Below, in pieces: positions 9,486-36,250 of a stretch of DNA of 64,000 nt. Each line of letters begins with the position of its first letter. Positions within the stretch are counted from its first letter, which is position 1. The stretch is taken from positions 20,046-84,045 of the forward strand of contig JAFYMC010000002.1 of NCBI GenBank assembly GCA_017556805.1, given 5' to 3'. The notes beneath the pieces were generated by a model that was not told the origin of the DNA, did not search any database, and was given only the letters and a program-made list of their open reading frames with translations. The position numbers and the translations under genes were made by a program. This DNA is from Lachnospiraceae bacterium. Lineage in GTDB: Bacteria; Bacillota; Clostridia; Lachnospirales; Lachnospiraceae.

Positions 9486-9528
9486 AATAAAACAGCCCGA
9501 CCGCAAGCTTTCTGCCTGCAGTCGAGCC
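9486..9528 (-). terminator. Rho-independent terminator overlapping the riboswitch 3' end
   Basis: Arms 9514-9528 and 9494-9508 form a 14-bp stem with three G-U pairs and a 5-nt loop, followed by TGTTTTATT. Its 5' arm is the 3' side of the upstream c-di-GMP aptamer, so aptamer and terminator compete. It can also end the hydratase transcript. Confidence 0.8.
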
Positions 9529-9592
9529 GCCATAATCGTTTCTCTTAAACCTCTGACTTTGCGTCCCTGCGTTTCCACAGGTTTGCTTCCTG
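9518..9592 (-). promoter_or_regulatory. Cyclic di-GMP-I (GEMM) riboswitch aptamer
   Basis: On the minus strand the core reads GCAAACC (9586-9580), a stem closed by a GAAA tetraloop (9575-9572), GGGACGCAAAG (9567-9557), then AGAGG-UUUAAG and a 3' side ending GGCGGCUCGACUGC. GCAAACC, the GNRA loop and GACGCAAAG in this order are the diagnostic GEMM-I consensus. The aptamer starts within a few bases of the hydratase stop codon and is followed by the terminator at 9486-9528 and then the VWA surface-protein gene. The competing stems suggest transcriptional control; on or off direction cannot be set by eye. Confidence 0.88.
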
Positions 9593-11872
9593 TTAGCCTC
9601 TGTAGTAGTTAATGAGACAACCCTTGGTGATAATCTCGCGCTCATCATCGGTCAGCTCCCCGAGACGTACGGTAAACGGAACCAGCTTCTCGCCTACCAC
9701 ATATGCGGTAATCTCGGACTGCTTCTCGACAACAGCCTTCTTAATGTCCTTTAAGAAGATGTAGTCACCGTTCTTGAACGGCAACTCACCGTCGAACAAG
9801 AACGGAAGCATACCCCAGTTGATGAGGTTACTGCGGTAACGCTTGGTTGCGTATTCCTTCGCAATGTTTGCAAGACCACCAAGTACCTTCTGACAGCTTG
9901 CTGCCTGCTCACGTGCGGAACCGTCACCCGGCTTCGTTGCATAAATCACACTACCGATTTCGGTTGCGGACGGATTTACCTCCATCTGCTTTGCTACCAT
10001 ATCGAAGGCAGCAGCTACTTCTGCATTTGCCTCGCTGATGGAAGCGCCTGCAATTCTTGCCTTCTCTGCCTTCTGTACTTCCTTTGCACGGCCCACGTAT
10101 GCCGGGTCCTTTCTGGAAAGGGTAAACTCAGCAAGACCGAGCGGGTTGGAACGATAAGAGGAAGTCTCACCGGACGGAATCAACTCATCGGTGGTGGTAA
10201 CCGGATCATGAATCTCGGAAACAACCTTAAGCAACATATCGTCGGTCAGTGCGGACATTGCCGGCCAGTCAACGATACCCGGTCCGAACTTCACTTCCGC
10301 ATCCTTATCCGGCTTTCCTGCGCCGAAGTATACTCTATTCTCATAAATGGAAGAATCAAAATAGTAAGCCGGCTTCGTAAATACGGTGTCAAGCTCGTCA
10401 GCACCGGTTAAGAAGCCCTTGTTTGCTGCGGTTGCCGCAATGGAACGTGCATCCATAAGTGCAACGGAAGCAATCTGGCCGTTGGTAACCTTGGAACCTT
10501 CGCGGTTCGGGAAGTTACGGGTAGAATGACGGATACTGAGACCGTTGTTTGCCGGAACATCACCTGCACCGAAGCACGGTCCACAGAATGCGGTACGGAT
10601 GGTAGCACCTGCACGCATCAGTTCTGCTACTCTGCCGTTCTTAACTAACTCCATGAAAATCGGCTGGCTGGCCGGATATACGCTTAAGGAGAACTCATCG
10701 TTACCGATGAACTTGTCCTTTAAGATGTCTGCTGCATCACAAATGTTCTCAAAGCCGCCACCTGCACAACCTGCGATAACGCCCTGCTCGATGTAGAGCT
10801 TGCCGTTACGGATCTTGTCGCGAAGCTTATAGGTAACCTTGTTATTGTCAAGGCTCACTAACGCCTTCTTTTCAACCTCTGCCAAAATATCCTCTAAGTT
10901 AGCCTTTAAATCAGCGATGGTATACACATTGCTCGGATGGAACGGCATTGCAATCATCGGGCGGATCTTATCAAGCTCCACCTCAATGATACCGTCATAG
11001 TAAGTCACCGGAGCAAGCTTTAACTCCTTGTAGTCTTCCTTACGTCCGTGCATCTCGTAGAACTCTTCCACTGCGGAATCGGTCTCCCAGATGGAGGACA
11101 GACAGGTGGTCTCCGTGGTCATAACATCTACGCCGATACGGTAATCCACACTCATGTTGTGAACGCCTTCACCGAAGAATTCCATTACCTTATTGTTTAC
11201 ATAGCCGTTGGCAAATACAGCACCGATAATCGCCAGTGCGATATCCTGCGGACCTACACCCTTTGCCGGCTTACCGGTCATGTGTACGCCCACTACCTTC
11301 GGCATATTGATATCATACGTCTTATTGAGAAGCTGCTTTACAAGCTCCGGACCACCCTCGCCTACTGCCATGGTACCTAATGCACCGTAACGGGTATGGC
11401 TGTCGGAACCGAGAATCATCTTGCCGCCACCAGCCAGCATTTCTCTTGCAAACTGATGAATAACAGCCTGATGCGGCGGAACATAGATGCCGCCGTAACG
11501 CTTTGCACAGGAAAGACCAAACATGTGGTCATCCTCATTAATGGTACCGCCTACCGCACAAAGACTGTTGTGGCAGTTGGTCAGAACATACGGAACCGGG
11601 AACTCGGTGAGTCCGCTGGCTCTTGCGGTCTGGATAATACCTACGAACGTAATATCGTGGGAGGTAAGCTTATCAAACTTAATCTTTAACTTATCCATGG
11701 AACCGGAGGTATTGTGCGCCTCTAAAATTCCATAGGAAAGCGTTGCCTTCTTTGCTTCTTCTGCTGCCGGCACAGAGCCTAATAATGCAGCAACCTTCTG
11801 CTTGCCGTCTGCGGTATCTTCGATTACTTCACCGTTAACCACATACGCGCCGTTTTTAAATAATGTAATCAT
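9593..11872 (-). CDS. Aconitase-family hydratase (YbhJ/AcnA-like, substrate uncertain)
   Basis: A 759-residue protein of the aconitase superfamily. Iron-sulfur ligands are visible as [11 protein letters not shown] (Cys near 367) and [11 protein letters not shown] (two Cys near 429-432). [14 protein letters not shown] and [20 protein letters not shown] are the conserved substrate-site segments. The C-terminal swivel domain ends near [14 protein letters not shown]. Start ATG 11872 follows AAAGGG at 7 nt; the frame extends to 11905 without a good site. Clostridial genomes often annotate this class only as hydratase; it may supply aconitase activity or act on a related hydroxy-acid. No citrate synthase or isocitrate dehydrogenase gene is adjacent. 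Confidence 0.85.
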
Positions 11873-25074: not shown

Positions 25075-25080
25075 TAATTC

Positions 25081-25317
25081 GCGCCACCTACGCACTTCGC
25101 GACTCCGTCGTTCAGTCGTGGGCGCGTTCGCATGACTATTCATCTCTTTGCGTGCAGGCCACTCGCATGCGCGTCACCCACGCACTTCGCGACTCCGTCG
25201 CTCAGTCGTGGACGCGTTCGCATGACTATTCATCTCTTTGCGTGCAGGCCACCCGCTTGCGCGTCACCCACGCACTTCGCGACTCCGTCGCTCAGTCGTG
25301 GGCGCGTTCGCATGACT
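25081..25317. repeat. 90-bp tandem direct repeat, about 2.6 copies
   Basis: Units begin with CGCACTTCGCGACTCCGTCG at 25091, 25181 and 25271, so the period is exactly 90 bp. Units 1 and 2 differ at 4 of 90 positions by eye; unit 3 matches for its first 47 bases and then diverges into the hairpin part of the structured element (25240-25377). Each unit contains GCGTGCAGGC (start of the closing stem) and the conserved ATGCGAACGCG block. It fills the gap between the spoIIGA promoter and the ftsZ terminator. Short open frames across it are not genes. Confidence 0.92.
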
Positions 25318-25377
25318 GCGCAACTGCAAGTGAGCAAGCTCATGCAGTTTGCTCGCATGCTCACTTTGCCTGCACGC
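25240..25377 (-). ncRNA. Structured repeat element, copy A (candidate RNA, family seen again at 36087-36218)
   Basis: On the minus strand it is closed by a perfect 10-bp stem, GCGTGCAGGC (25377-25368) with GCCTGCACGC (25249-25240). Inside come a hairpin with TGAG-CUUG-CTCA (CUUG tetraloop) and the conserved block ATGCGAACGCGC-CCAC-GACTGAGCGAC, in which CCCAC pairs with GTGGG and GACT with AGTC. It begins immediately after the U-run of the ftsZ terminator. Whether it is an RNA, a DNA-level repeat or both is not known; it is unlikely to encode protein. Confidence 0.65.
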
Positions 25378-25405
25378 AAAAAAGGCTACGCTTTCGCGTA
25401 GCCTT
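25378..25405 (-). terminator. Rho-independent terminator of ftsZ
   Basis: AAGGCTACGC stem (10 bp, 25405-25396 with 25391-25382), GAAA loop on the minus strand, followed by TTTTTT. It abuts the structured repeat element that follows. Confidence 0.9.
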
Positions 25406-25426
25406 CTATACTGTCTCTCATCTACA

Positions 25427-26716
25427 TTACTTCTTCTTGGAAGAATAGTTCTGGATAAACGGCGGTATCTTAATCTTCTCTTCGCCGCCGTCTGCTGCAG
25501 CCGTATCCTGCTTTCCGAACATCGGATTGGTGGAACGTGCCGCAAACGGAGCCGCACCTGCCGGCTTATACTCGGTGGTCGTCGGCTTCGGGCGTACCGC
25601 ATTCGGGTCAAACTTGTAATCGAACTGCTCCATGGTGCCACGGTCTGCCGGTGCCACGTTATTGGTAGCAGAGTAATTGCCACGGCTTAAGAAGCCCGGA
25701 AGGGATACTCCCGGTGCCGGTGTCTTTATACCGAACTGACTATTCATACGCTGTGCCTGTGCACCGTTCTCCTGAAGACCGGTAGCGATAACGGTAATCA
25801 CCGCCTGATCCTGCATGGTCTCGTCGTACATTGCACCAAAAATAATATTTGCATTCTCACCTGCAAGTAACTGTACCTCGGTGGCTGCCTCATTTACCTC
25901 AATCAGGCTGACATCACCGGATACATTTAAGATAACATGACTTGCGCCCTGAATCTTCGTTTCGAGAAGCGGACTGGATACTGCCTTATGTACCGCATCT
26001 AAACACTTCTGCTCGCCGGTACCCATACCGATACCGATATGTGCCACACCCTTGTCCTGCATAACCGTCTGTACGTCCGCAAAGTCAAGGTTAATAAGAG
26101 CCGGGAGATTAATGAGGTCGGTAATACCCTGTACACCCTGCTGTAATACTTCGTCTGCCTTCTTTAATGCCTCCGGCATGGAAGTACGACGATCTACAAT
26201 TTCAAGAAGCTTGTCATTCGGAACTACAATCAAAGAGTCCACGTTCTGCTTTAATTTCTCAATACCGGAAACCGCATTTGCCATACGTACCTTATGCTCA
26301 AAGGTAAACGGCTTGGTCACAATACCAACCGTCAGGATACCCATCCCCTTTGCGATGCCCGCAACCACCGGAGCCGCACCGGTACCGGTACCGCCACCCA
26401 TACCACAGGTAACGAACACCATATCCGCTCCCTTAATAATCTGGGTCAATTCCTCTATGTTCTCTTCAGCGGCCTTTTCACCGATTTCAGGCTTTGCACC
26501 TGCACCGAGACCCTTGGTCAGCTTTTCTCCGATCTGAATACACTGGGATGCCTTACAATTCTTTAAGTGCTGCTTGTCCGTATTGACACAAACAAACTCA
26601 ACACCGCCGATCCCTTCCTCAATCATTCTGTTTACCGCATTATTACCCGCACCGCCGACGCCGATTACCAAAATCTTAGCGGCTACGTCTGTGGTATTGT
26701 TCATAATTTCAAGCAC
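25427..26716 (-). CDS. ftsZ: Cell division protein FtsZ
   Basis: 429 residues. GTPase domain with [26 protein letters not shown] and the tubulin signature [12 protein letters not shown]7 loop [12 protein letters not shown] variable, proline/threonine-rich linker leads to the C-terminal anchor peptide KIPPFIQ. FtsZ polymerises into the division ring. Start is GTG 26716 with GGAGG at 7 nt; an ATG four codons in (26704) is too far from that site. It has its own promoter and terminator, separate from the upstream division genes. Confidence 0.98.
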
Positions 26717-26803
26717 GGTGACTCCTCCTTTTATTCTCTCACAACCCTCAAAACAACAAGATGTTGTGTATATTTTCCTCTATTGCCCCATCCTCTATAC
26801 TAT

Positions 26804-26832
26804 ATCATATATTGAAATAGAAAATTTAGCAA
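26804..26832 (-). promoter_or_regulatory. Sigma-A promoter of ftsZ
   Basis: TTGCTA (26832-26827), 17-bp spacer, TATGAT (26809-26804), about 90 bp before the ftsZ GTG and downstream of the ftsQ stop. Confidence 0.65.
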
Positions 26833-26860
26833 GCATTTTTTTCACATTTTATTCTTTTTT

Positions 26861-27604
26861 TTACTCTTCCTTCGGTTTTGCTATAATATCCTCCGTTCCG
26901 CCGCTGTATCCGGACAAGTCGATATACAGATTCCGGTCCGTAACAGACGGGAGCAAATCCGCCAGTTTTTGTATCGGCAAATCATAGGCCGTACGGCGTC
27001 CCATAGCCACACTACAGGTCCCAACCTCCAGCTCCACCTCACCTTTTCCGTTAAAGGTAATGCTCTCTGCGGGAATTTCGTATTCCCGGACCAGCTTTGT
27101 TATATTTAAAATAATATCATATAACTCGTCCTTCTGGATCTTCAACTTTTCGTACAAAACAATCCGGTCAAACTCCAGTCCCTTTACAAGCGGAACGCCC
27201 GGCAACTGCTCCACGGAGGTCTCCGTAACATAGCCGTCCTTATCAAAATACAGGTACTGCCCCATTACCTTCACGGAGCCTACCAGAATTTTCTCGTACA
27301 CCCGGATGTGAATGACATTTTTTCCTTCCACCGTAATATCATAGCGTTCGATATAGGGAACTCTCTGTTCTCCGTTCCGGAACTGTTCCAACCGGAACAA
27401 CAGGGTATTTTTTCTGGCAGTCTCATCGGAGATTTTTGTAAGAAACTCCTCCTTCGTATAATAGGTCAGCCCTTCGACCGTTATTTCCTCTGTCCGGAAC
27501 ACCCCGTAAAACAACAGCACCAAAGCTCCGAGAATCACCGCCACTGCGATAAACCGAATCAGTCCACGGATTCCTCCGCGCTGTTCTTCCGTATGATTAC
27601 TCAT
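26861..27604 (-). CDS. ftsQ: Cell division protein FtsQ/DivIB
   Basis: 247 residues. A short cytosolic N-terminus, one membrane helix (FIAVAVILGALVLLFYGVF), a POTRA domain beginning EEITVEGLTYYTKEEFL, and a beta domain with ILVGSVKVMGQYLYFDKDGYV. It links the septal synthase to the divisome. The C-terminal ITFNGKGEVELEVGTCSVAMG and LYIDLSGYSGG are typical of clostridial forms. Follows murA by 25 bases. Confidence 0.93.
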   Translation of the reverse strand: MSNHTEEQRGGIRGLIRFIAVAVILGALVLLFYGVFRTEEITVEGLTYYTKEEFLTKISDETARKNTLLFRLEQFRNGEQRVPYIERYDITVEGKNVIHIRVYEKILVGSVKVMGQYLYFDKDGYVTETSVEQLPGVPLVKGLEFDRIVLYEKLKIQKDELYDIILNITKLVREYEIPAESITFNGKGEVELEVGTCSVAMGRRTAYDLPIQKLADLLPSVTDRNLYIDLSGYSGGTEDIIAKPKEE

Positions 27605-27629
27605 AGTTACTCTCCATCTTCATTTATTT

Positions 27630-28880
27630 CTACTCCGCAACCACTGTCATTGCTCCTAAACGCCCCAGTGTCCCGCAGATATCCTCGTATCCTCTGGCAA
27701 TGTACTCGTACCCGGCCACACAGGTTTCTCCCTCTGCCGCAAGTCCCGCCAGAACAAGTGCCGCTCCGCTCCGCAAATCCGTTGCCGTAACTGTCGCTCC
27801 GTGTAAATGTTCTGTCCCCCGGATAAAAACGGAACGGCCGATTCTCTTTATATCCGCTCCCATCCGTTGTAATTCCGGCACAACGCCGAACCGGGATTCA
27901 AACACCGTTTCTGTTACACAACTTTCTCCCTCTGCCATCGCAAGCATTGCCACGGTCTGGGACTGCATATCCGTAGGAAACGCCGGATAGGGAGCCGTCA
28001 CAATCCCCGGCACCGCCCTCAGCCGTTTCGGAGCTCTCAAAATGACCGAATCACCTTCCCGGTATACCCGGTTTCCCATTTTGCGGAAACATTCCAGAAT
28101 TCCGTTCAAACAAACCTGCCCGGTCCCGCAAAGACAAACCTCTCCGGCAGTTACAGCCGCAGCAGCCAAATACGTCCCGGCCACAATCCGGTCTCCCGAT
28201 ACGGTATACTCCGTTCCGTAAAGTCCGTTCACTCCTTCTATTACAATCCGTGAGGTACCCATGCCACGGATTCTTCCTCCGGCCGAATTTAAGAAACGAC
28301 AAAGCTCCGTAATCTCCGGTTCTCTTGCCGCTCCGCAAATTACCGTAGTTCCTGTTGCGCACACCGCAGCCAGTACAGCATTTTCCGTTGCTCCCACACT
28401 GGGATAAGACAGCATCACTCTGCCTCCCGCAGGACAGCCGCGAAGCATTACTCCCTCCGACTCCTCCGTTAGGATTGCTCCCAACTGTCGGAATACCCGG
28501 CAATGTAAATCTATGGGACGTGCTCCGATGACGCAACCTCCCGGATAGGCCATTCCCGCTTCGTGAAAGCGTCCCCAGCATGCACCGAGAAGCAAAACAC
28601 CGCCTCTCGTCTTTCCCGCAAGCTCCGGTCCGAACCGATACGGTTTTGCATCTGTCGTATCCAGTTCCAAAAGTCCCTCTTTGAAGGTACTTTTCACTCC
28701 GGAAAAGGAAAGCGTATAAAGGAGATTCCTTACATCGGAAATATCCGGACAATGATGCAGCATTACCTTTCCTCTGCAAAGGATACTTGCTGCCAGAATC
28801 GGTAATACCGCATTCTTTGACCCCTGCAGAAAAAGCTCTCCCTCCAGTTTATTTCCGCCTTCTATCTTCACATACGACAT
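27630..28880 (-). CDS. murA: UDP-N-acetylglucosamine 1-carboxyvinyltransferase MurA (divergent paralogue)
   Basis: 416 residues, EPSP-synthase fold. GSKNAVLPILAA supplies the substrate Lys-Asn, PGGCVIGARPIDLH the catalytic cysteine, and YPAFPTDMQSQ the catalytic aspartate. It makes the first committed step of peptidoglycan precursor synthesis. Compared with standard MurA, the segment before the cysteine (TRGGVLLLGACWGRFHEAG) and several other stretches are divergent and cysteine-rich, so it may be the MurA2-type copy. It lies between ftsW and ftsQ, where murG or murD often lies. Confidence 0.9.
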   Translation of the reverse strand: MSYVKIEGGNKLEGELFLQGSKNAVLPILAASILCRGKVMLHHCPDISDVRNLLYTLSFSGVKSTFKEGLLELDTTDAKPYRFGPELAGKTRGGVLLLGACWGRFHEAGMAYPGGCVIGARPIDLHCRVFRQLGAILTEESEGVMLRGCPAGGRVMLSYPSVGATENAVLAAVCATGTTVICGAAREPEITELCRFLNSAGGRIRGMGTSRIVIEGVNGLYGTEYTVSGDRIVAGTYLAAAAVTAGEVCLCGTGQVCLNGILECFRKMGNRVYREGDSVILRAPKRLRAVPGIVTAPYPAFPTDMQSQTVAMLAMAEGESCVTETVFESRFGVVPELQRMGADIKRIGRSVFIRGTEHLHGATVTATDLRSGAALVLAGLAAEGETCVAGYEYIARGYEDICGTLGRLGAMTVVAE

Positions 28881-28933
28881 AGCATCTCTCCGGGTGTTAT
28901 TCTATGTCATACTATGCTGCCAACACAAAAATG

Positions 28934-30085
28934 TTACCTTTCGTATTCAATCCGGTTGGAAACGCTGAGAGCAATTCCCATCTCCGCCATCAGTACTACC
29001 AGGGATGTACCTCCATAACTGATAAACGGAAGCGGAATACCGGTAGACGGCATCGTATTGGTAACTACCGCAATATTAATCAGTACCTGCATCGCTATAT
29101 GTATCATAATTCCCACACAGATGAGGGAACCGAACAAATCTCTTGCATTTACCGCTACCACAAACAAACGCCACAGAAGCAATACATAAAGCAAAATAAT
29201 CGCCAAGGCACCCACAATACCCAATTCCTCGCAAATCACCGAGAAAATCATATCGTTATGGGACTCCGGAATAAAGCCCAGCTTCTGCATACTTTGTCCC
29301 AGACCCTTACCCCACAAACCGCCGGAGGCAATGGCGTACAAGCCCTGCAAAATCTGATAGCCCTTCGGATGGGTTTCTACATTCAGCCACGCGTCGATAC
29401 GCTCTCCTCGGAAGGCCTCTCCCAGGAAGATGTACCCGGCCACCAGCCCCGCCGCAAGCAATCCCGCTACAAAGAAATATCCCTTTCTTCTGGCCACCAC
29501 AAAGCATACCAGAAAGGTAATTCCCGCAATAATAATCGCAGTACTTAAGTTCTCCGCCGCTACCAGTGCCAGAAGCGGTGCCACATAAATACATACCCGG
29601 ATAAATCCGTATACCGTATCCAGTCGTTTCGGTGCCGCATACACAATATAGGCCACCAGCAATATGACGCAGATTTTGGTAAGCTCCGAAGGCTGGAAGG
29701 TACCTAAAAGCGGGATTTTAATCCAACGCTTTGCACCTTTTACCTCTTCTCCGAAGAACAATACATAAATCTGCAGGCCGATACACAACGCATACGCCAG
29801 AAACAACAATCTAATCTTATACTTCTTTCCGATTCCTTTGATATAAAAGAAGTAGTCGATTTTAGATATAACAATCATAACCACAGCACCGATGACCGCG
29901 GATATAAGCTGCCGTTTAAAAAAGTAGGCCGCATCTCCGAATTTTTGCTTTACCGCATAATAGGAGCTGGTACTGTAGACCATAACCAAACCGATACATA
30001 CTAAAATAAGCGTTATGAAAAGCAGGCTGTAGTCATAATAGGTCTGCGGTTTATATTCAGTTTTTCGCACCGTAGGCTTCTCCAT
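28934..30085 (-). CDS. ftsW: SEDS peptidoglycan glycosyltransferase FtsW/SpoVE
   Basis: 383 residues with about ten membrane helices. SEDS family signatures: YDYSLLFITLILVCIGLVM at the start, KRWIKIPLLGTFQPSELTK (SEDS R-W, P-S-E-L-K region), and GIPLPFISYGGTSLV near the C-terminus. It polymerises lipid II at the septum together with the class B PBP encoded upstream. Because a SpoVD-like PBP precedes it, it may be the SpoVE-type copy used in spore cortex synthesis; sequence alone does not separate FtsW from SpoVE here. Confidence 0.92.
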   Translation of the reverse strand: MEKPTVRKTEYKPQTYYDYSLLFITLILVCIGLVMVYSTSSYYAVKQKFGDAAYFFKRQLISAVIGAVVMIVISKIDYFFYIKGIGKKYKIRLLFLAYALCIGLQIYVLFFGEEVKGAKRWIKIPLLGTFQPSELTKICVILLVAYIVYAAPKRLDTVYGFIRVCIYVAPLLALVAAENLSTAIIIAGITFLVCFVVARRKGYFFVAGLLAAGLVAGYIFLGEAFRGERIDAWLNVETHPKGYQILQGLYAIASGGLWGKGLGQSMQKLGFIPESHNDMIFSVICEELGIVGALAIILLYVLLLWRLFVVAVNARDLFGSLICVGIMIHIAMQVLINIAVVTNTMPSTGIPLPFISYGGTSLVVLMAEMGIALSVSNRIEYER

Positions 30086-30114
30086 AGTTTCACCCTCCTG
30101 CCACTCATTATATT

Positions 30115-32064
30115 CTATTTCATATGGAGAATCAAGGCAGTGTTTTTCTTTACCTCTTCTCCCGCTTCCGGAAACTGTTCCGCCACCGTTTCCCCGTCTC
30201 CGGAAATGTAGAGCTCTCCGATTTCATAAGCCTTTAACAACTTTTGCGCTTCACCCTTTGTCAGTCCTACCAATGCCGGCATCGGAAAGGTTCCCACACC
30301 GTCCAGCTTCAACTCATCCTCGGAATATACCGGCTCAATCCCCAGATATGGAAGCACCTCGTCAAACACCTCCGCAATGACCGGTGCCGCAATGGTTCCT
30401 CCGTAATAAATCCCTTCCGGCTCGTCAATCAACACCAACGCAATCACCTGCGGATTCTCTGCCGGTGCAAAGCCTAAGAAAGAGGAAATATACTGATTGG
30501 AGCTACGGGGCAGTTTTTCGGAGGTAGCAGTCTTCCCACCAATCCGGAATCCCGGCAGGTATGCCCTCTTTCCGGTTCCGTCGTGTACCACCGCCTCTAA
30601 AAGAGTCTTCATGGTTTCACTGGTCTTTTCGGAAACAATCCCGGTTTCTCCGCTGTACTTATAGGTCTTTACCGTATTTTCTTCCGTATTCTTTGCATAC
30701 ATAGCAAAATGAGGTGTAATTTCGTTTCCTCCGTTGATTACAGTGCTCACCGCCGAAAGAAGCTGCATCGGCGTAATCTGAAAGGACTGGCCGAAGGATA
30801 TGGTGGCCAGCTCCACTGCCTTTACATTTTCGGTTTTATGCATGATAGAGGACGCTTCTCCCGGTAAATCAATACCGGTCTTTCTCATCAGGCCCAGTTT
30901 TTCAAAAGTCTCATACAAGCCGTCGATTCCCACTCTAGCTCCGATTTCCATAAAAACCGGATTGCAGGAATTCTTAATCCCATCCACAAATGTCTCACTT
31001 CCGTGTCCCCCCACCTTATGACAGTGAATGGTTCTGTCTTCTACAATCTTATAGCCCGGACAATAAAACCGGTCCGTCACCGACACCTTGGCAAATTCAA
31101 AGGCCGCAGTAGCCGTTATAATCTTAAACGTGGACCCCGGCTCATAAGTATCACTGATACAGGGATTTCTCCACATTTGATTCAGTAACGTATTCTTTTC
31201 TTCCGGGGACACTTCCGAAGAAGTTGCCTTTGCGGCGTATTCCTCATTTAACGTATACGGGGCATTCAAATCAAACTCCGGCACATTGGCCATAGCGTAA
31301 ATTTCTCCGTTTTGCGGATTCATCAAAATCATACTGACATGGTTTGCGTTTTTCGCTTCCAGTACCTTCATGGCCGCCTGCTCCGCATAGCGCTGGATAT
31401 TCACATCCAGACTGACGGTCAGGGAATTGCCTGCCACCGGTTCCTGTCTGTTTTCCGCCGCATTGGGTATCTCGGTGCCGTGGGCCGTTGTCAGCGTCAG
31501 AATCTTGCCCGGTATTCCGGACAGTAAGGAGTCATACTTTACCTCCAGTCCGATAATCCCCTGATTATCCCCTCCGGTAAAACCGATCACTCTGGACGCC
31601 ATGGTGCCGAAGGGATAATACCGTTTATAATCCTCGTCCACCATAACGCCATCCAGTTCAAAGCTCCGCAAATAATCCGCTGTCTCTTTGTCTACATTGG
31701 CCTTAATCCGCTCAATGGAGGATACCTTTTCCACCCGTTTGCGTACGGTTTCCTCCGGAAGCTCCAGAACCTCACACAATACGGAAATCACCCGTTCCGG
31801 GTCCGTAATCTGGCTGTGAATAACCGATACGGTACATACCGGCTTATTGTCCGCCAAAACAACACCGTTTCTGTCAAAAATAATTCCGCGGGCCGCCTTA
31901 ATGCTTCGTTCCCGTTCGTGCAATTCCTGCGCCTGCACGGCGTAATCCTCCGAATGAAGAATCATCAGATACACCAGTCTGCCTATCAGTCCAAGCGTCG
32001 CCGCAAATAACATGCAAATCACCAATAAAGCCGTTTTCCTTTGTTTGGATGTAATCTGCCTCAT
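30115..32064 (-). CDS. spoVD: Class B penicillin-binding protein with PASTA domain, SpoVD-like
   Basis: 649 residues. One N-terminal membrane helix, a dimerisation domain with ARGIIFDRNGVVLA, and a transpeptidase with EPGSTFKI (SxxK), NSCNPVF (SxN) and GGKTATSEKLP in place of the usual KTGT. A single C-terminal PASTA domain starts near FPMPALVGLTKGEAQKLL. Class B PBPs with one PASTA domain next to a SEDS gene are SpoVD or PbpB/Pbp2x types. ATG 32064 is chosen; an in-frame TTG at 32076 has no ribosome binding site. The KTA variant of motif 3 is unusual relative to its neighbour. Confidence 0.9.
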   Translation of the reverse strand: MRQITSKQRKTALLVICMLFAATLGLIGRLVYLMILHSEDYAVQAQELHERERSIKAARGIIFDRNGVVLADNKPVCTVSVIHSQITDPERVISVLCEVLELPEETVRKRVEKVSSIERIKANVDKETADYLRSFELDGVMVDEDYKRYYPFGTMASRVIGFTGGDNQGIIGLEVKYDSLLSGIPGKILTLTTAHGTEIPNAAENRQEPVAGNSLTVSLDVNIQRYAEQAAMKVLEAKNANHVSMILMNPQNGEIYAMANVPEFDLNAPYTLNEEYAAKATSSEVSPEEKNTLLNQMWRNPCISDTYEPGSTFKIITATAAFEFAKVSVTDRFYCPGYKIVEDRTIHCHKVGGHGSETFVDGIKNSCNPVFMEIGARVGIDGLYETFEKLGLMRKTGIDLPGEASSIMHKTENVKAVELATISFGQSFQITPMQLLSAVSTVINGGNEITPHFAMYAKNTEENTVKTYKYSGETGIVSEKTSETMKTLLEAVVHDGTGKRAYLPGFRIGGKTATSEKLPRSSNQYISSFLGFAPAENPQVIALVLIDEPEGIYYGGTIAAPVIAEVFDEVLPYLGIEPVYSEDELKLDGVGTFPMPALVGLTKGEAQKLLKAYEIGELYISGDGETVAEQFPEAGEEVKKNTALILHMK

Positions 32065-32106
32065 ACCGTTCCGCAAAATGTTTTTATAATCTTATGCGAA
32101 AGTTAC

Positions 32107-34071
32107 CTATTCCATGTCATCCGGAATGGCTGCCATATTTCCCTCATTCATATCCGGATCGTATACCACGCCGGTATCTCCGATCTCACCGATTTGCATC
32201 TCTACATCTTCTTCGTCAACAACAAAGCTCGGATACTTAATTTCCGTATCCGGATATATTTTCAAATACGGTAACGACTCTTCTAAAATATCCGCCGCCA
32301 AGCCGGACGCAATAGATGCTCTGCTCTGCAGTTCCTCGTCATCCGCCTCGTCAACTACCACATAAATCATGACCTGCGGATTGTCTGCCGGTGCACATCC
32401 GATAAAGGATACCAGGTACTTTCCTTCACTTCTCGGAAGCTTCTGGGCCGTACCGGTCTTTCCTCCGATCAAATATCCCTCTACCTGGGCTGCGGTCGCC
32501 GTTCCCTCCTGTACGGTCAAATAAAACGCATCCCGTAAAAACTCCGAGGTTTCTTTCGAAATCGTATTGCATACCACTCTCGGCTCAATTTTTTCGATTA
32601 CCACACCATCCGCATTCCGGATTTCCTTTATTACATGCGGCTCATAATAAATACCGCCGTTTACCATAGAGGAAAAAGCAGAACCCAACTGAATCATAGT
32701 AGTATTAAAGGACATACCGAAGCTGGCGGTTGCAAGCTCCGTTTCGTTTAACTGCTCCTCATCCATTAAAATACCCGGAACCTCCCCCGGCAAATCCACA
32801 CCGGTCAGCTGTCCGAATAAAAATCTGCGCTGATACTCCGCAAAAACCTCCCTGCCTTCCTGCTTTGCCACCTCCATCAATACATCGTTACAGGAGTGCA
32901 TAATACTCTGGGCAGCATTAATCATACCGTGTCCCCATTTGTTATGACAGGAAATAAAATAGTTGGCTACCTGTTCCCCTCCGTTACACAAAAAGGTCTC
33001 TGTCGTGTCAATAATCGTCTCCTCTAACGCAGCCGCAATGGTGAACGGCTTAAAGGTAGAGCCCGGCTCATAAGAGTCACTGATACAGAAGTTTCTCCAT
33101 ACCTTATACAAAGCCTCCAGATATGCAGTATCATCCATGGCTGCAATTTCTTCCTCGGAATACCATTTGGAAAGACTACGCGGATCATTTAAATCATAGC
33201 TGTAGTTGGACTGCATTGCCAGTACTTCTCCGGTATTTACTTCCATCATAATGACTCCGACGTTTTTAGCTCCGATTTCATCTAAAAACGCCTCCGTGTG
33301 CTTCTGTACGATTCGTTGCAGATTGGCATCTATGGTGGAAACAATAATTTGTCCGTCCTGTGCCGGAACCGTCTCCTGTTGTACATTCAAATCCGCATCG
33401 TAATAGTCGTACACTCTGCCGTTAATACCGGACAATTCCTCGTTATACTGCTGTTCGATTCCGTAAGTGCCGTCTCCGTCCGCTTTTGCAAAACCAAGCA
33501 CATGAGACGCCAAGGTACCGAAAGGATACGTCCGCAAATACTCTTCCTCAAAGGTCACACCGAGAATCTTTCCTTTATCTTTGTTTTCGGAACCGTCCGC
33601 CTCCTTCGGCAGATTCTTTTCATATTCTTCAAACAGCATCTTTTCCTCGTAAGTCATATACTTACGAAGCCTGTAATACGCACTGTTTTTCCGTTCCTCA
33701 AGCACCGCGCGCAGTTCTGCCTCTTCGTAGCCGTACACGCTGCACAACGCACGAATGGTAGGCTCGATACTGTCCTCGTTGTTTAAAATCAACCGGGAAT
33801 CCAGAATCAGATGATAGACTTTTTCACTCTTTGCCAGTACGGTGCCGTTCCGATCAAGAATATCGCCCCGTTTATACTGTAACACCGTATCGGTACCGGT
33901 CTTCTGGGATAAGGATGCCTTTGCATAGCTCGTATTGCTTCCCACCAGAACCACGCGTATCATAATTACTAAAATACCCACAAGAAACAGGCAAAACACA
34001 ACCCACAATGTCGCCTGCATTTTGCCTGTCATTCTCTTACGTTTTTTCTTCCTCTTTTCACCCTGTTCCAT
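32107..34071 (-). CDS. pbpB: Class B penicillin-binding protein (FtsI/PBP2-type septal transpeptidase)
   Basis: 654 residues. N-terminal basic tail (KRKKKRKRMTGK), one membrane helix, dimerisation domain with YKRGDILDRNGTVLAKS, transpeptidase with EPGSTFKPF (catalytic Ser, Lys), HSCNDV and GGKTGTAQKLP. The C-terminus is acidic (VDEEDVEMQIGEIG onward) and lacks a PASTA domain. It cross-links septal peptidoglycan. It lies between ftsL and the SpoVD-like gene, so the cluster codes two tandem class B PBPs. Confidence 0.92.
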   Translation of the reverse strand: MEQGEKRKKKRKRMTGKMQATLWVVFCLFLVGILVIMIRVVLVGSNTSYAKASLSQKTGTDTVLQYKRGDILDRNGTVLAKSEKVYHLILDSRLILNNEDSIEPTIRALCSVYGYEEAELRAVLEERKNSAYYRLRKYMTYEEKMLFEEYEKNLPKEADGSENKDKGKILGVTFEEEYLRTYPFGTLASHVLGFAKADGDGTYGIEQQYNEELSGINGRVYDYYDADLNVQQETVPAQDGQIIVSTIDANLQRIVQKHTEAFLDEIGAKNVGVIMMEVNTGEVLAMQSNYSYDLNDPRSLSKWYSEEEIAAMDDTAYLEALYKVWRNFCISDSYEPGSTFKPFTIAAALEETIIDTTETFLCNGGEQVANYFISCHNKWGHGMINAAQSIMHSCNDVLMEVAKQEGREVFAEYQRRFLFGQLTGVDLPGEVPGILMDEEQLNETELATASFGMSFNTTMIQLGSAFSSMVNGGIYYEPHVIKEIRNADGVVIEKIEPRVVCNTISKETSEFLRDAFYLTVQEGTATAAQVEGYLIGGKTGTAQKLPRSEGKYLVSFIGCAPADNPQVMIYVVVDEADDEELQSRASIASGLAADILEESLPYLKIYPDTEIKYPSFVVDEEDVEMQIGEIGDTGVVYDPDMNEGNMAAIPDDME

Positions 34072-34080
34072 GCACTACTC

Positions 34081-34548
34081 CTACTCCGGAATATCCTGAT
34101 ACTGTATTACATGCCCCTGTTCCGTAGACTTATATGTAATCACTTCGTTCTGATTCGGATATACCATACCAAGCTCGCCAACCGCAGTCATGTAAACCGC
34201 TTCCCAGTTGACCTGTCCGTTTAAACTATCTTCCAGTGCGGCATTCTCGGCCTTAACGGTAGTAAGCTGCTGATCCAGCACCATAATATCCCGTTCCAGC
34301 TGTACAATGTTACCCTGCACCTGAAGGTAATTATAACACAAGTAAAGCGTAATTGCCATAGCTGCAACCAAAAGAGTCATAGAAAGAAAATCAATTCCGT
34401 GACTTACCTTCGGTGCATGCTTCGGTTGCTCCGCCACACGCGGACGCGATACCTGCTCTCTTTCATAATCCGGCACCACCTGCAATTGTCTTGCAGCCGT
34501 ACCGTCTACCATATATCCTTTGTTTGAATACTTGTCTCTTGCATCCAT
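34081..34548 (-). CDS. ftsL: Cell division protein FtsL
   Basis: 155 residues: a cytosolic N-terminus of about 75 residues, one membrane helix (FLSMTLLVAAMAITLYLCY), and an extracytoplasmic coiled coil (VQLERDIMVLDQQLTTVKAENAAL in outline) that pairs with FtsB/DivIC. Sequence conservation is low, as usual for FtsL; assignment rests on topology and the position between rsmH and pbpB. Start ATG 34548 has GGAGGAG at 6 nt; the longer frame to 34632 overlaps rsmH. Confidence 0.88.
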   Translation of the reverse strand: MDARDKYSNKGYMVDGTAARQLQVVPDYEREQVSRPRVAEQPKHAPKVSHGIDFLSMTLLVAAMAITLYLCYNYLQVQGNIVQLERDIMVLDQQLTTVKAENAALEDSLNGQVNWEAVYMTAVGELGMVYPNQNEVITYKSTEQGHVIQYQDIPE

Positions 34549-34564
34549 GCAGACTCCTCCTTCA

Positions 34565-35515
34565 CTAATTGCGTTCAAACACCCGCAACTTTGCGCTCTT
34601 TGCTCTTTTGTTCTCTTCACATTCTGTTTCACTCGGTAAAATCGGTTTCCGTGTAATTACCGTTCCTGCCGACTTTTTCCCGCATACACATACCGGGAAG
34701 CTCGGCGGACACTCGCACGGATTCTCTCTCTTTTTAAAGCCGGATTTTACAATCCGGTCCTCCAGAGAATGGAATGTAATAATACATAATCTTCCGTTTT
34801 CTTCCAGCAGATCAATCATGTCATCCAATGTGTTCTGAAGCACTCTCAGTTCTCCGTTCAGTTCAATACGAATTGCTTGAAAAGTACGCTTCGACGGATG
34901 TCCCAGATTCTTTTGAATCTTCATCGGAATCGCTGCCCGAATCGCCTCGTTTAAATCACCGCAGGTAACAAGCTCCTTCTTCTCCCTGCGCATTACAATG
35001 TGCTTTGCTATATTTTTTGCAAAAGGATCTTCACCGTAATCTTTGATAATCCGGAAAAGTTCCTTCTCACTGTAGCCGTTTACAATATCCCTTGCGGTCA
35101 TTTCCATACGGTTGTCCATCCGCATATCAAGCGGTGCATCCTCTTCCCGATAGGAAAATCCACGTTCTGCGGTATCCAACTGATACGAGGACACTCCCAG
35201 ATCAAGCAAAATACCACTGACCTTTTCGATGCCCAGATCCTGTAATACCGTCTTCATCTCACTGTAATTACTACGCACCACCTTAGCAAACGGATACTTT
35301 GCAAGACGTTCGCTTGCCACGGCAATGGCATCCGCATCCTGGTCGATTCCCACAAAGGAACCGCCTTTTAAACGCTTACATACCTCACCGGCATGTCCCG
35401 CACCACCCAGGGTACCGTCTACGTAAATTCCGTCCTCCCGTATATTTAACTGTTCCAGTACTTCCTCCAGTAATACCGACTTGTGCCGGAATACAATTTC
35501 CTGTTCGTTTCCCAT
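34565..35515 (-). CDS. rsmH: 16S rRNA (cytosine(1402)-N(4))-methyltransferase RsmH
   Basis: 316 residues. N-terminal [13 protein letters not shown] and the SAM site [36 protein letters not shown] and [14 protein letters not shown] are RsmH hallmarks. It methylates C1402 in the ribosomal P site. Position after mraZ is conserved in the division cluster. ATG 35515 has AGGTG at 7 nt. Confidence 0.97.
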
Positions 35516-35535
35516 GCGGTATCACCTGTCCTTTC

Positions 35536-35964
35536 CTAAAAGTTAATTCCGTACTGTGCCATGTTCTCTGCCACATCCTCCATGTTGCCGTCACCTTCGA
35601 CCTCTTCCCAACGCTCTTTACTCCAAAGCTCGATTTTGGAAAGCACGCCCACAAGTACCACATCCTTTGTCAATCCCGCCTGTTCCCTGAGTTTTCCCGG
35701 AATCAGGAATCTTCCCTGCTTGTCCACGTCTACCTCTGCGGCTCCTGCCATAAAGTGACGCTGTAACTGACGTCCTTCTTTGGTACCCGGCAAACTTCTC
35801 AGCTTGTCCGCAAACTGTTCCCATTCCCCCATGGGATAAGCGAACAGGCAGCCGTCCAAGCCCAAGGTAAGAATAAAACGTTCTCCCAGTTCCTCACGAA
35901 ACTTGGCCGGAACAATCATACGCCCCTTCGGGTCTAAGGTATGATCATACTCTCCCATGAACAT
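35536..35964 (-). CDS. mraZ: Transcriptional regulator MraZ
   Basis: 142 residues with two SpoVT-AbrB-like motifs: MGEYDHTLDPKGRMIVPAKFRE and VDKQGRFLIPGKLREQAGL. MraZ binds repeats in front of its own gene and controls the division and wall cluster. A run of decamer repeats matching its known target lies directly upstream. Start ATG 35964 (MFMGEY) is the family start; the frame extends to 36030 through the operator. Confidence 0.96.
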   Translation of the reverse strand: MFMGEYDHTLDPKGRMIVPAKFREELGERFILTLGLDGCLFAYPMGEWEQFADKLRSLPGTKEGRQLQRHFMAGAAEVDVDKQGRFLIPGKLREQAGLTKDVVLVGVLSKIELWSKERWEEVEGDGNMEDVAENMAQYGINF

Positions 35965-35980
35965 GAAACTCACCGCCTTT

Positions 35981-36042
35981 CGCTCCACTTTATTCCACTT
36001 CTCTCCACTTCCCTCCACTTCTACCCTCATTTTACTCCACTT
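35981..36042 (-). promoter_or_regulatory. MraZ operator: 10-bp-spaced AGTGGA repeats
   Basis: On the minus strand four consecutive decamers start AGTGGAG, AGTGGAG, AGTGGAA and AGTGGAG (36020 to 35981), with a further AGTGGAG at 36042-36036 and a degenerate one between. Known MraZ boxes are GTGG-type repeats with 10-bp period. The last copy sits inside the promoter spacer and the others follow the -10, so binding should repress. Confidence 0.85.
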
Positions 36043-36057
36043 TTTTTAAATTTTCAA
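36029..36057 (-). promoter_or_regulatory. Sigma-A promoter of mraZ and the division cluster
   Basis: TTGAAA (36057-36052), 17-bp spacer, TAAAAT (36034-36029). One MraZ box lies in the spacer and four just downstream of the -10. Confidence 0.8.
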
Positions 36058-36086
36058 CCCCTAAATGAAAATATTGAAAAAAAATT

Positions 36087-36218
36087 GCGTGCAAGCACTG
36101 CTTCGCACCTCTCCCCACCTCGCGACTTGGTCGCTCGGTCGTGAGCGCGTTCGCATACCCAAAAATTTTCGGGAGCAAGCTCCCAAAATTTCTGGGTATG
36201 CTCACTTTGCTTGCACGC
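36087..36218 (-). ncRNA. Structured repeat element, copy B (candidate RNA)
   Basis: Closed by a perfect 11-bp stem: GCGTGCAAGCA (36218-36208) with TGCTTGCACGC (36097-36087). Inside is a long hairpin of about 17 bp capped by GGGAG-CUUG-CTCCC, then the block ATGCGAACGCGC-TCAC-GACCGAGCGAC, where CTCAC can pair with GTGGG. Compared with copy A at 25240-25377 the closing stem has a G-C to A-U exchange on both sides, and the internal hairpin differs in sequence but keeps its CUUG loop. As in copy A, it starts directly after a terminator U-run. Confidence 0.65.
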
Positions 36219-36250
36219 AAAAAAGAGCATTTAGTCCGCCTAAATGCTCT
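36219..36250 (-). terminator. Rho-independent terminator of the lgt-like gene
   Basis: Stem of 11 bp around GAGCATTTAG / CTAAATGCTC with a 5-nt loop, followed on the minus strand by TTTTTT and then immediately by the structured repeat element. Confidence 0.9.

Follow-up and report, generated by a model that had tools for sequence, protein, structure and literature searches.

Copies of a probably mobile, non-coding repeat mostly lie directly behind intrinsic terminators in a Lachnospiraceae genus

What kind of element begins exactly where a terminator ends? The question is raised by two copies of a structured repeat, copy A and copy B, in a 64,000-nucleotide stretch of Lachnospiraceae bacterium DNA (contig JAFYMC010000002.1, positions 20,046 to 84,045; this whole stretch is referred to as the window). 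The initial annotation of the window had left two answers standing, an RNA released by read-through or a DNA repeat such as a REP-like (repetitive extragenic palindromic) or MITE-derived (miniature inverted-repeat transposable element) unit. Its account of an architecture common to both copies was confirmed in the sequence, including the coordinates, the closing helices and the CUUG-capped stems of differing sequence, and so was the start of each element at the end of a terminator, behind ftsZ in copy A and lgt in copy B. In both cases the first base follows the last T of the terminator with no spare bases. Pfam matches identified FtsZ upstream and SpoIIGA downstream of copy A, and LGT upstream and MraZ downstream of copy B. 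We conclude that A and B are probably copies of a mobile element that is non-autonomous, gene-less and non-coding, that targets terminators and that leaves no detectable target duplication.

With up to 3 mismatches allowed, the left-end pattern GCGTGCANGCAAAGTGAG was located 36 times in the genome of 2.9 Mb, a count that takes in a few look-alikes and short partial copies, and the backward control 0 times. A covariance model, R1, was built from 18 aligned clean copies of this genome, A and B among them, and returned 36 matches in it at E≤0.1, some of them partial and 30 of them below 1e-7; the dispersed, structure-conserved repeat posited by the initial annotation is borne out by these matches. 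The element measures about 130 nt, or about 190 nt with an optional inner module, and the family is short, non-coding, multi-copy and bounded by terminal inverted repeats, as expected of MITEs. A search of 61 genomes with R1 gave 10–38 matches in each of the 10 genus members (the own genome is G000 and the others G001–G009) and none in the 51 non-members, of which 27 belong to the family and 24 to the order. Of 299 sampled family genomes R1 matched 3, two belonging to the genus and the third to a different one; outside the genus strict filters applied and at most 54 (61-genome set) or 11 (299-genome set) candidates were scored per genome, so that weak copies may have been missed. The genome of the other genus, G192 (1 of 297 sampled outside), holds a single copy of 66.6 bits that by eye also starts directly after a terminator, which suggests that the landing habit predates the genus. 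In a named-species collection the pattern scan yielded 88 stretches in 12 assemblies whose titles read Lachnospiraceae, Clostridia or "bacterium" and in several cases mention deer or sheep gut; in 3 of the 12 the best R1 matches were weak (36.8 and 29.1 bits) or lacking, with 80 of the 88 stretches scanned. The R1-type pattern occurred in one stretch of viral contigs (L245), where the 17-base left end gave 0 stretches, and there were no matches to the copy A region in plasmid sequences or to copy B in phage sequences.

The placement of the element was measured on 68 of the 97 non-window R1 matches (at least 79.8 bits) together with 30 of the 36 own-genome matches, L066 being excluded from flank and offset counts because it lies near a contig end. 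A terminator was scored where 45 nt folded to −7 kcal/mol or lower and at least 5 of 6 bases near the end were T. By this test a terminator ended exactly at the element (offset 0) in 66 of 94 copies, and in 20 of 29 when the own genome was taken alone. When the test point was shifted 5 bases upstream only 8 of 94 passed, and shifts of 10 to 200 bases left 1 to 7 of 92–94. Of 2845 positions drawn at random from the same loci, 43 passed. Some of the copies that failed have terminators by eye, either with interrupted T-runs or in a compound arrangement, TTTTT-GCGTGCAGGCAATGT followed by a whole second copy. The terminator sequences vary between copies, orthologous sites excepted. A T directly precedes the element in 90 of 95 copies and an A directly follows it in 75; none of the 95 shows a direct target duplication in the form of identical flanks of at least 3 bases. 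Orientation is likewise uneven: among 93 copies the terminator lies only upstream in 57, only downstream in 2 and on both sides in 8.

The compound form was seen in L132, L176, L118, L120, L103 and L045. In it a complete inner copy comes after a short left end (GCGTGCAGGCAATGT or the like) and in several cases before an outer right part; the form may spread as one unit. Five of the 20 own loci scanned with Rfam (L045, L047, L049, L053 and L056) place the repeat between the regulatory terminator of a T-box (4 loci) or of a thiamine pyrophosphate (TPP) riboswitch pair (1 locus) and the regulated gene.

Orthologous sites in the genus show that the copies come and go. At the MraZ site of copy B, the closest relative, G004 (MraZ 96% identical), has nearly the same terminator hairpin, differing in one base, and no element; it is also absent from the stretches covering the site in G006, G001, G003, G002, G009 and G007. 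At the SpoIIGA site of copy A, a similar terminator with another loop is followed in G004 by an element cut down to its first part; the remaining eight genus genomes have none, G002 and G003 seemingly with a different upstream gene. For 23 more copies of the own genome the flanking sequences were traced in G004, G006 and G001, which with A and B makes 25 sites. Twenty-two of these were readable by eye in G004 (the L066 site from its left flank alone) and comprise 9 with a full or variant copy, one of them cut by a contig end, 5 with a truncated copy and 8 that are empty. The L047 site reads TTTTATTTT-element-AGAAGGC.. in G000 and TTTTTTTTAGAAAAGG.. in G001, and the copy at the L050 site is common to G000 and G004 and missing from G001. 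By eye the terminator at the L052 site looks regulatory, and it has no match to the T-box model at threshold; the copy behind it is in sense orientation in G000, inverted and with different ends in G004 and of a third version in G006, and G001 has none. Some copies are old, the one at the L053 site being present in G000, G004 and G006 alike. The L057 and L064 copies differ from their G004 orthologues (L276, L284) by the inner module of about 55 nt (GGTCCACAACGTCCGG..GACCGAAACGAAGTGTAGACG), which is present or absent within otherwise orthologous copies. A stretch similar to this module was found in a different context (L293), and the module is perhaps a nested repeat of its own.

The turnover at orthologous sites is one of insertion, loss and remodelling, and not that of a fixed RNA gene. 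The read-through RNA of the initial annotation is not supported, because in relatives the terminators exist without the element, copies are gained, truncated or lost, and at one site G004 has an inverted copy; the weak G-U excess described below likewise speaks against it. Other inserts lie at the same post-terminator spot at the L047–L049 sites in G006, at L049 in G001 and at L060 in G004, so that insertions in general seem either to be tolerated at this spot or to be drawn to it; mere tolerance is countered by the peak at offset 0. Other post-terminator sequences were noted in L253 and L268 (G006) and L261 (G004), one of which (..AAGTCTTTCTAATTACTCCGG..GGAGTAATAAGAAAGTCT..) is present at two G006 sites.

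In the comparison with Rfam, copy A matched Clostridiales-1 (RF01699) over the full model (1–166) with 31.5 bits by cmscan, below the gathering threshold of 48 and with many non-standard pairs within the long hairpin, and copy B was unlisted up to E 5 by cmscan and up to E 1 in the genome search. At E≤1 the RF01699 model found 12 places in the own genome, 8 of which are R1 copies (16–43.6 bits); a separate place, L001, is a true Clostridiales-1 with 111.8 bits. In 14 control genomes it gave one positive, below cut-off. Across 200 family genomes, with up to 13 matches scored per genome, 109 had matches at E≤1e-4, 87 had matches above cut-off and many had 12–13. The two families share a closing helix, a long hairpin with a CUUG-like loop, a helix with a UGAG..GAA(T/G)-type internal loop and a multi-copy state in the family; by loose motifs, the internal loop was found in 90 of 96 R1 copies and 30 of 30 RF01699 loci, the corresponding counts for the fourth hairpin being 41 and 15. 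R1 differs in its end sequences, in the absence of duplication and in its terminator target, the same test placing a terminator upstream of 3 of 30 strong RF01699 loci versus 66 of 94 R1 copies. The R1 family is a divergent relative of Clostridiales-1.

The 30 Clostridiales-1 loci, from other genera (L215–L244), have the ends TGATRYCAGGGTCAAAAG and often CTTTTGACCCCAACATCA. In 21 of the 30 a second end like ACATCA, often CTTTTGACCCCAACATCA, lies 16–74 nt (mostly about 30) past the end of the model, and these 21 show a perfect 5-bp duplication in 10 cases and a 6-bp duplication in 2, where shuffled flanks give 0.97 and 0.10. Clostridiales-1 thus looks at least in part like a set of MITEs. The table of Weinberg 2010, which was the sole paper on the motif found in the open-access literature, classes it as a probable RNA that is probably not cis-regulatory. 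An autonomous partner of Clostridiales-1 was sought in three genomes through the end sequence; among the matches listed were two inverted pairs 1.6–1.9 kb apart, and the long open reading frames (ORFs) between them did not by eye resemble transposases. The 18-mer TGATGTTGGGGTCAAAAG, which is like a Clostridiales-1 end, was found in 3 stretches of viral contigs, one of which (L303, 8366–8383) adjoins a tyrosine integrase gene. There was no NCBIfam match in L303, and L305 shows the same stretch; as no second end was found, no link is claimed.

The alternative that fares best agrees that the element is mobile: R1 would belong to the ordinary MITEs, having inverted repeats at its ends and a DDE transposase to move it, and the post-terminator copies would be only those that survived purging. 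The inverted repeats themselves, the inverted copy at the L052 site and a relative with 5-bp duplications in 10 of 21 loci are what such a transposon would produce. Purging, however, predicts a spread of distances from the terminator, and the observed distances peak at offset 0; nor would a plain inverted-repeat transposon be expected to give a 57-to-2 strand bias, or no duplication of at least 3 bases in 95 copies. We regard this alternative as unlikely, while giving it serious weight.

The fold of the element is well preserved. The compensatory changes that the initial annotation had read from two copies proved general: the 18-copy alignment has pairing-preserving double changes in 24 of its 40 pairs, and in an alignment of 100 R1 matches (A2) 93.7% of cells pair and 35 of the 40 pairs show double changes. 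The covariation score of the 100 matches was 0.357, against 0.135 for shuffled alignments (0 of 500) and at best 0.068 with partners slid, a judgement by pair counts in which the shuffles ignore relatedness and the alignment is fitted to the model. Both window copies fold better than all of 200 dinucleotide shuffles, with z of −4.53 for copy A and −9.70 for copy B. The architecture features inverted-repeat ends of 10 bp (P1) that close a core of three inner hairpins (P2, P3 and P4). All 10 pairs of P1 show double changes in A2. P2 has a constant base and a mostly constant CUUG loop, with a stem whose sequence changes freely. The P3 helix (helix 8) is paired in 98.9% of cells, has double changes in 5 of 5 pairs and by a loose pattern carries the internal loop NGAG/CGAN in 90 of 96 R1 copies; P4 is a short hairpin whose loose motif was found in 41 of 96. 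The optional module follows P3 in some copies. In L067, from position 1501, the P2 hairpin AAAAGAGTTGCATG..CATGCAACTCTTTTTTT resembles a bidirectional terminator between convergent genes, possibly a case of domestication.

Mismatches able to pair on just one of the strands were counted as G-U against A-C. Their ratio was 113:65 in all copies and 58:24 in the best 55, compared with 11:0 in a control of 12 tRNAs, counts that are ambiguous between RNA and DNA since a model-fitted alignment favours G-U; P3 (4:5) and P4 (3:3) show no bias. Pairing is weakly preferred on the sense strand, yet far below what a plain RNA gene shows, so that the folded form may be DNA or RNA and the excess hints at most faintly at an RNA form.

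Such strong covariation might be taken to indicate a functional small RNA or cis-regulatory RNA, as Rfam views Clostridiales-1, that was duplicated and retained for its function; this explanation would suit the 5 own loci, among 20 scanned, in which the repeat lies between a T-box or TPP riboswitch and the regulated gene, and the L053-site copy common to three species. It is difficult to reconcile with orthologous sites at which copies have been gained, lost, truncated, inverted or altered in their modules, with the lack of any excess of G-U over A-C in P3 and P4 and with the little transcription that would be expected behind a terminator, and we hold it to be quite improbable. We consider any host function of the element secondary.

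Several observations weigh against the reading of R1 as a mobile, terminator-targeting element. Twenty-six of the 93 copies have no terminator on either side by the test used; nested copies and copies with broken T-runs are among them, and so are genuine exceptions. The placement counts include orthologous copies, and it was the element's own patterns and models that served to collect the copies. The assemblies of the genus are fragmented and incomplete (72–97%), and the empty-site junctions lie inside T-runs, which leaves breakpoints uncertain by several bases. The L049 copy is present in G000 and, by its flank, in G007 and not in G004, so loss instead of gain explains some empty sites. A mobilising enzyme was not identified in the genus in searches for PF01797 and PF00078, DDE transposases not being searched: PF01797 (RAYT-type, Y1 transposase) was found in 2 of the 10 genus genomes, all incomplete assemblies, and PF00078 reverse transcriptase in 4 of 10, one below cut-off. 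Neither enzyme is common to the genus, and with assemblies this fragmentary their absence is weak evidence. A crude scan of the collected loci found no longer ORF-bearing element with R1 ends, the right-end pattern used being one that misses ordinary copies too; it left 44 left ends without a near right end, which by eye are ordinary or truncated copies.

The last alternative, a special case of the preferred reading and the least probable of the three, is an RNA of retroelement type that a reverse transcriptase acting in trans would copy into DNA behind terminators, as happens with group IIC introns; it would in effect be a bacterial short interspersed nuclear element. The element shares its target with those introns (PMC8919778), and this alternative would account for one prevailing strand, zero duplication and the weak G-U excess on the sense strand. 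Against it, one copy is inverted, the paired ends are unlike those of an intron, cmscan returned no group II families among its matches, and of the three above-cut-off reverse transcriptases in the 10 genus genomes, which are the three of the four matches checked with Pfam, one (G009) has a group II maturase domain.

For the mobile, terminator-targeting element we envisage the following mechanism. An enzyme supplied in trans would recognise the element in a folded single-stranded form, whether DNA or RNA, and the same enzyme would read a hairpin followed by a T-tract as its target. The landing signal may be terminator DNA made single-stranded, or terminator RNA that ends exactly there. Landing behind a terminator would spare genes and keep the element from transcription, and in this way could favour its persistence. 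A fuller version, in which the element moves through a folded single-stranded RNA or DNA intermediate with the terminator hairpin and T-tract as target, a bacterial counterpart of short interspersed nuclear elements (SINEs) living on a foreign enzyme and with Clostridiales-1 as a related branch, is doubtful and is offered as a speculation.

If the element is what we propose, precise landing behind intrinsic terminators, to date described for class C group II introns and a number of related types, extends to a gene-less repeat, and terminator targeting becomes testable as a general strategy for harmless insertion. Strong covariation among copies in one genome can then stem from a mobile repeat, and an Rfam "sRNA" family, Clostridiales-1, is suggested to be at least partly a MITE family. 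Copies within T-box and TPP leaders might alter attenuation.

The features of the two loci are compiled in Table 1. Both tandem partial units that trail copy A are without P2, and R1 detected one unit there, at 25079–25192 with 36.8 bits. Elsewhere in the window, the sole Rfam match to reach threshold is a cyclic di-GMP (c-di-GMP-I) riboswitch at 9514–9597 on the minus strand (54.5 bits).

Table 1. Positions in the window of copies A and B, their parts and their landing sites.
Feature	Position	Strand	Basis
Copy A, full-length element, 138 nt	25240..25377	-	R1, 123.5 bits (A is among the 18 model-building copies)
Copy B, full-length element, 132 nt	36087..36218	-	R1, 135.6 bits (B is also a model member)
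Intrinsic terminator behind ftsZ, landing site of copy A, hairpin AAGGCTACGCGAAAGCGTAGCCTT and T-tract	25378..25405	-	sequence
Intrinsic terminator behind lgt, landing site of copy B	36219..36250	-	sequence
P1 5' arm (left terminal inverted repeat) GCGTGCAGGC, copy A	25368..25377	-	pairs with 25240-25249
P1 3' arm (right terminal inverted repeat) GCCTGCACGC, copy A	25240..25249	-	pairs with 25368-25377
P2, copy A: conserved base GTGAGCAT/ATGCGAACGC, variable paired stem, CUUG loop	25306..25364	-	coordinates from alignment columns
P3, copy A: CCCACGAC-UGAG-CGAC..GUCG-CGAA-G, helix with internal loop	25266..25302 (ends approximate)	-	
Tandem partial unit without P2, 90 nt, after copy A	25150..25239	-	sequence
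Second tandem partial unit, decayed right end	25080..25149 (end approximate)	-	sequence

Among known systems, REP elements are dispersed extragenic palindromes, and R1 differs from the REP/REPIN-RAYT system in its longer multi-hairpin unit, in its terminator target and in a genus where just 2 of 10 genomes have a Y1 transposase. From a typical MITE it differs in lacking a target-site duplication (0 of 95 at 3 bases or more). Group IIC introns insert directionally and without target duplication, and are much larger than the R1 element. Unlike them, R1 has no ORF, no group II match and ends paired as an inverted repeat, and at about 130–190 nt it is too small for an intron-encoded protein. What the two have in common is a seat directly behind intrinsic terminators (66 of 94 copies for R1), which PMC8919778 describes for group IIC introns and likewise for part of the related g6, U1 and U2 types; in the open-access literature, as far as its text was available, no terminator-seated repeats were found besides group II introns. 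The pneumococcal repeats BOX, RUP and SPRITE are gene-less, intergenic and restricted to close relatives, BOX being modular and BOX and RUP tightly folded with hybridised inverted ends, and the available part of PMC3049150 does not mention an exact seat at terminator ends. R1 is like them in being gene-less, intergenic and restricted to close relatives, like BOX and RUP in being folded with inverted ends, and like BOX in being modular, a likeness of description and not of sequence. In its anatomy the R1 family resembles MITEs and BOX, and in its choice of target it resembles group IIC introns.

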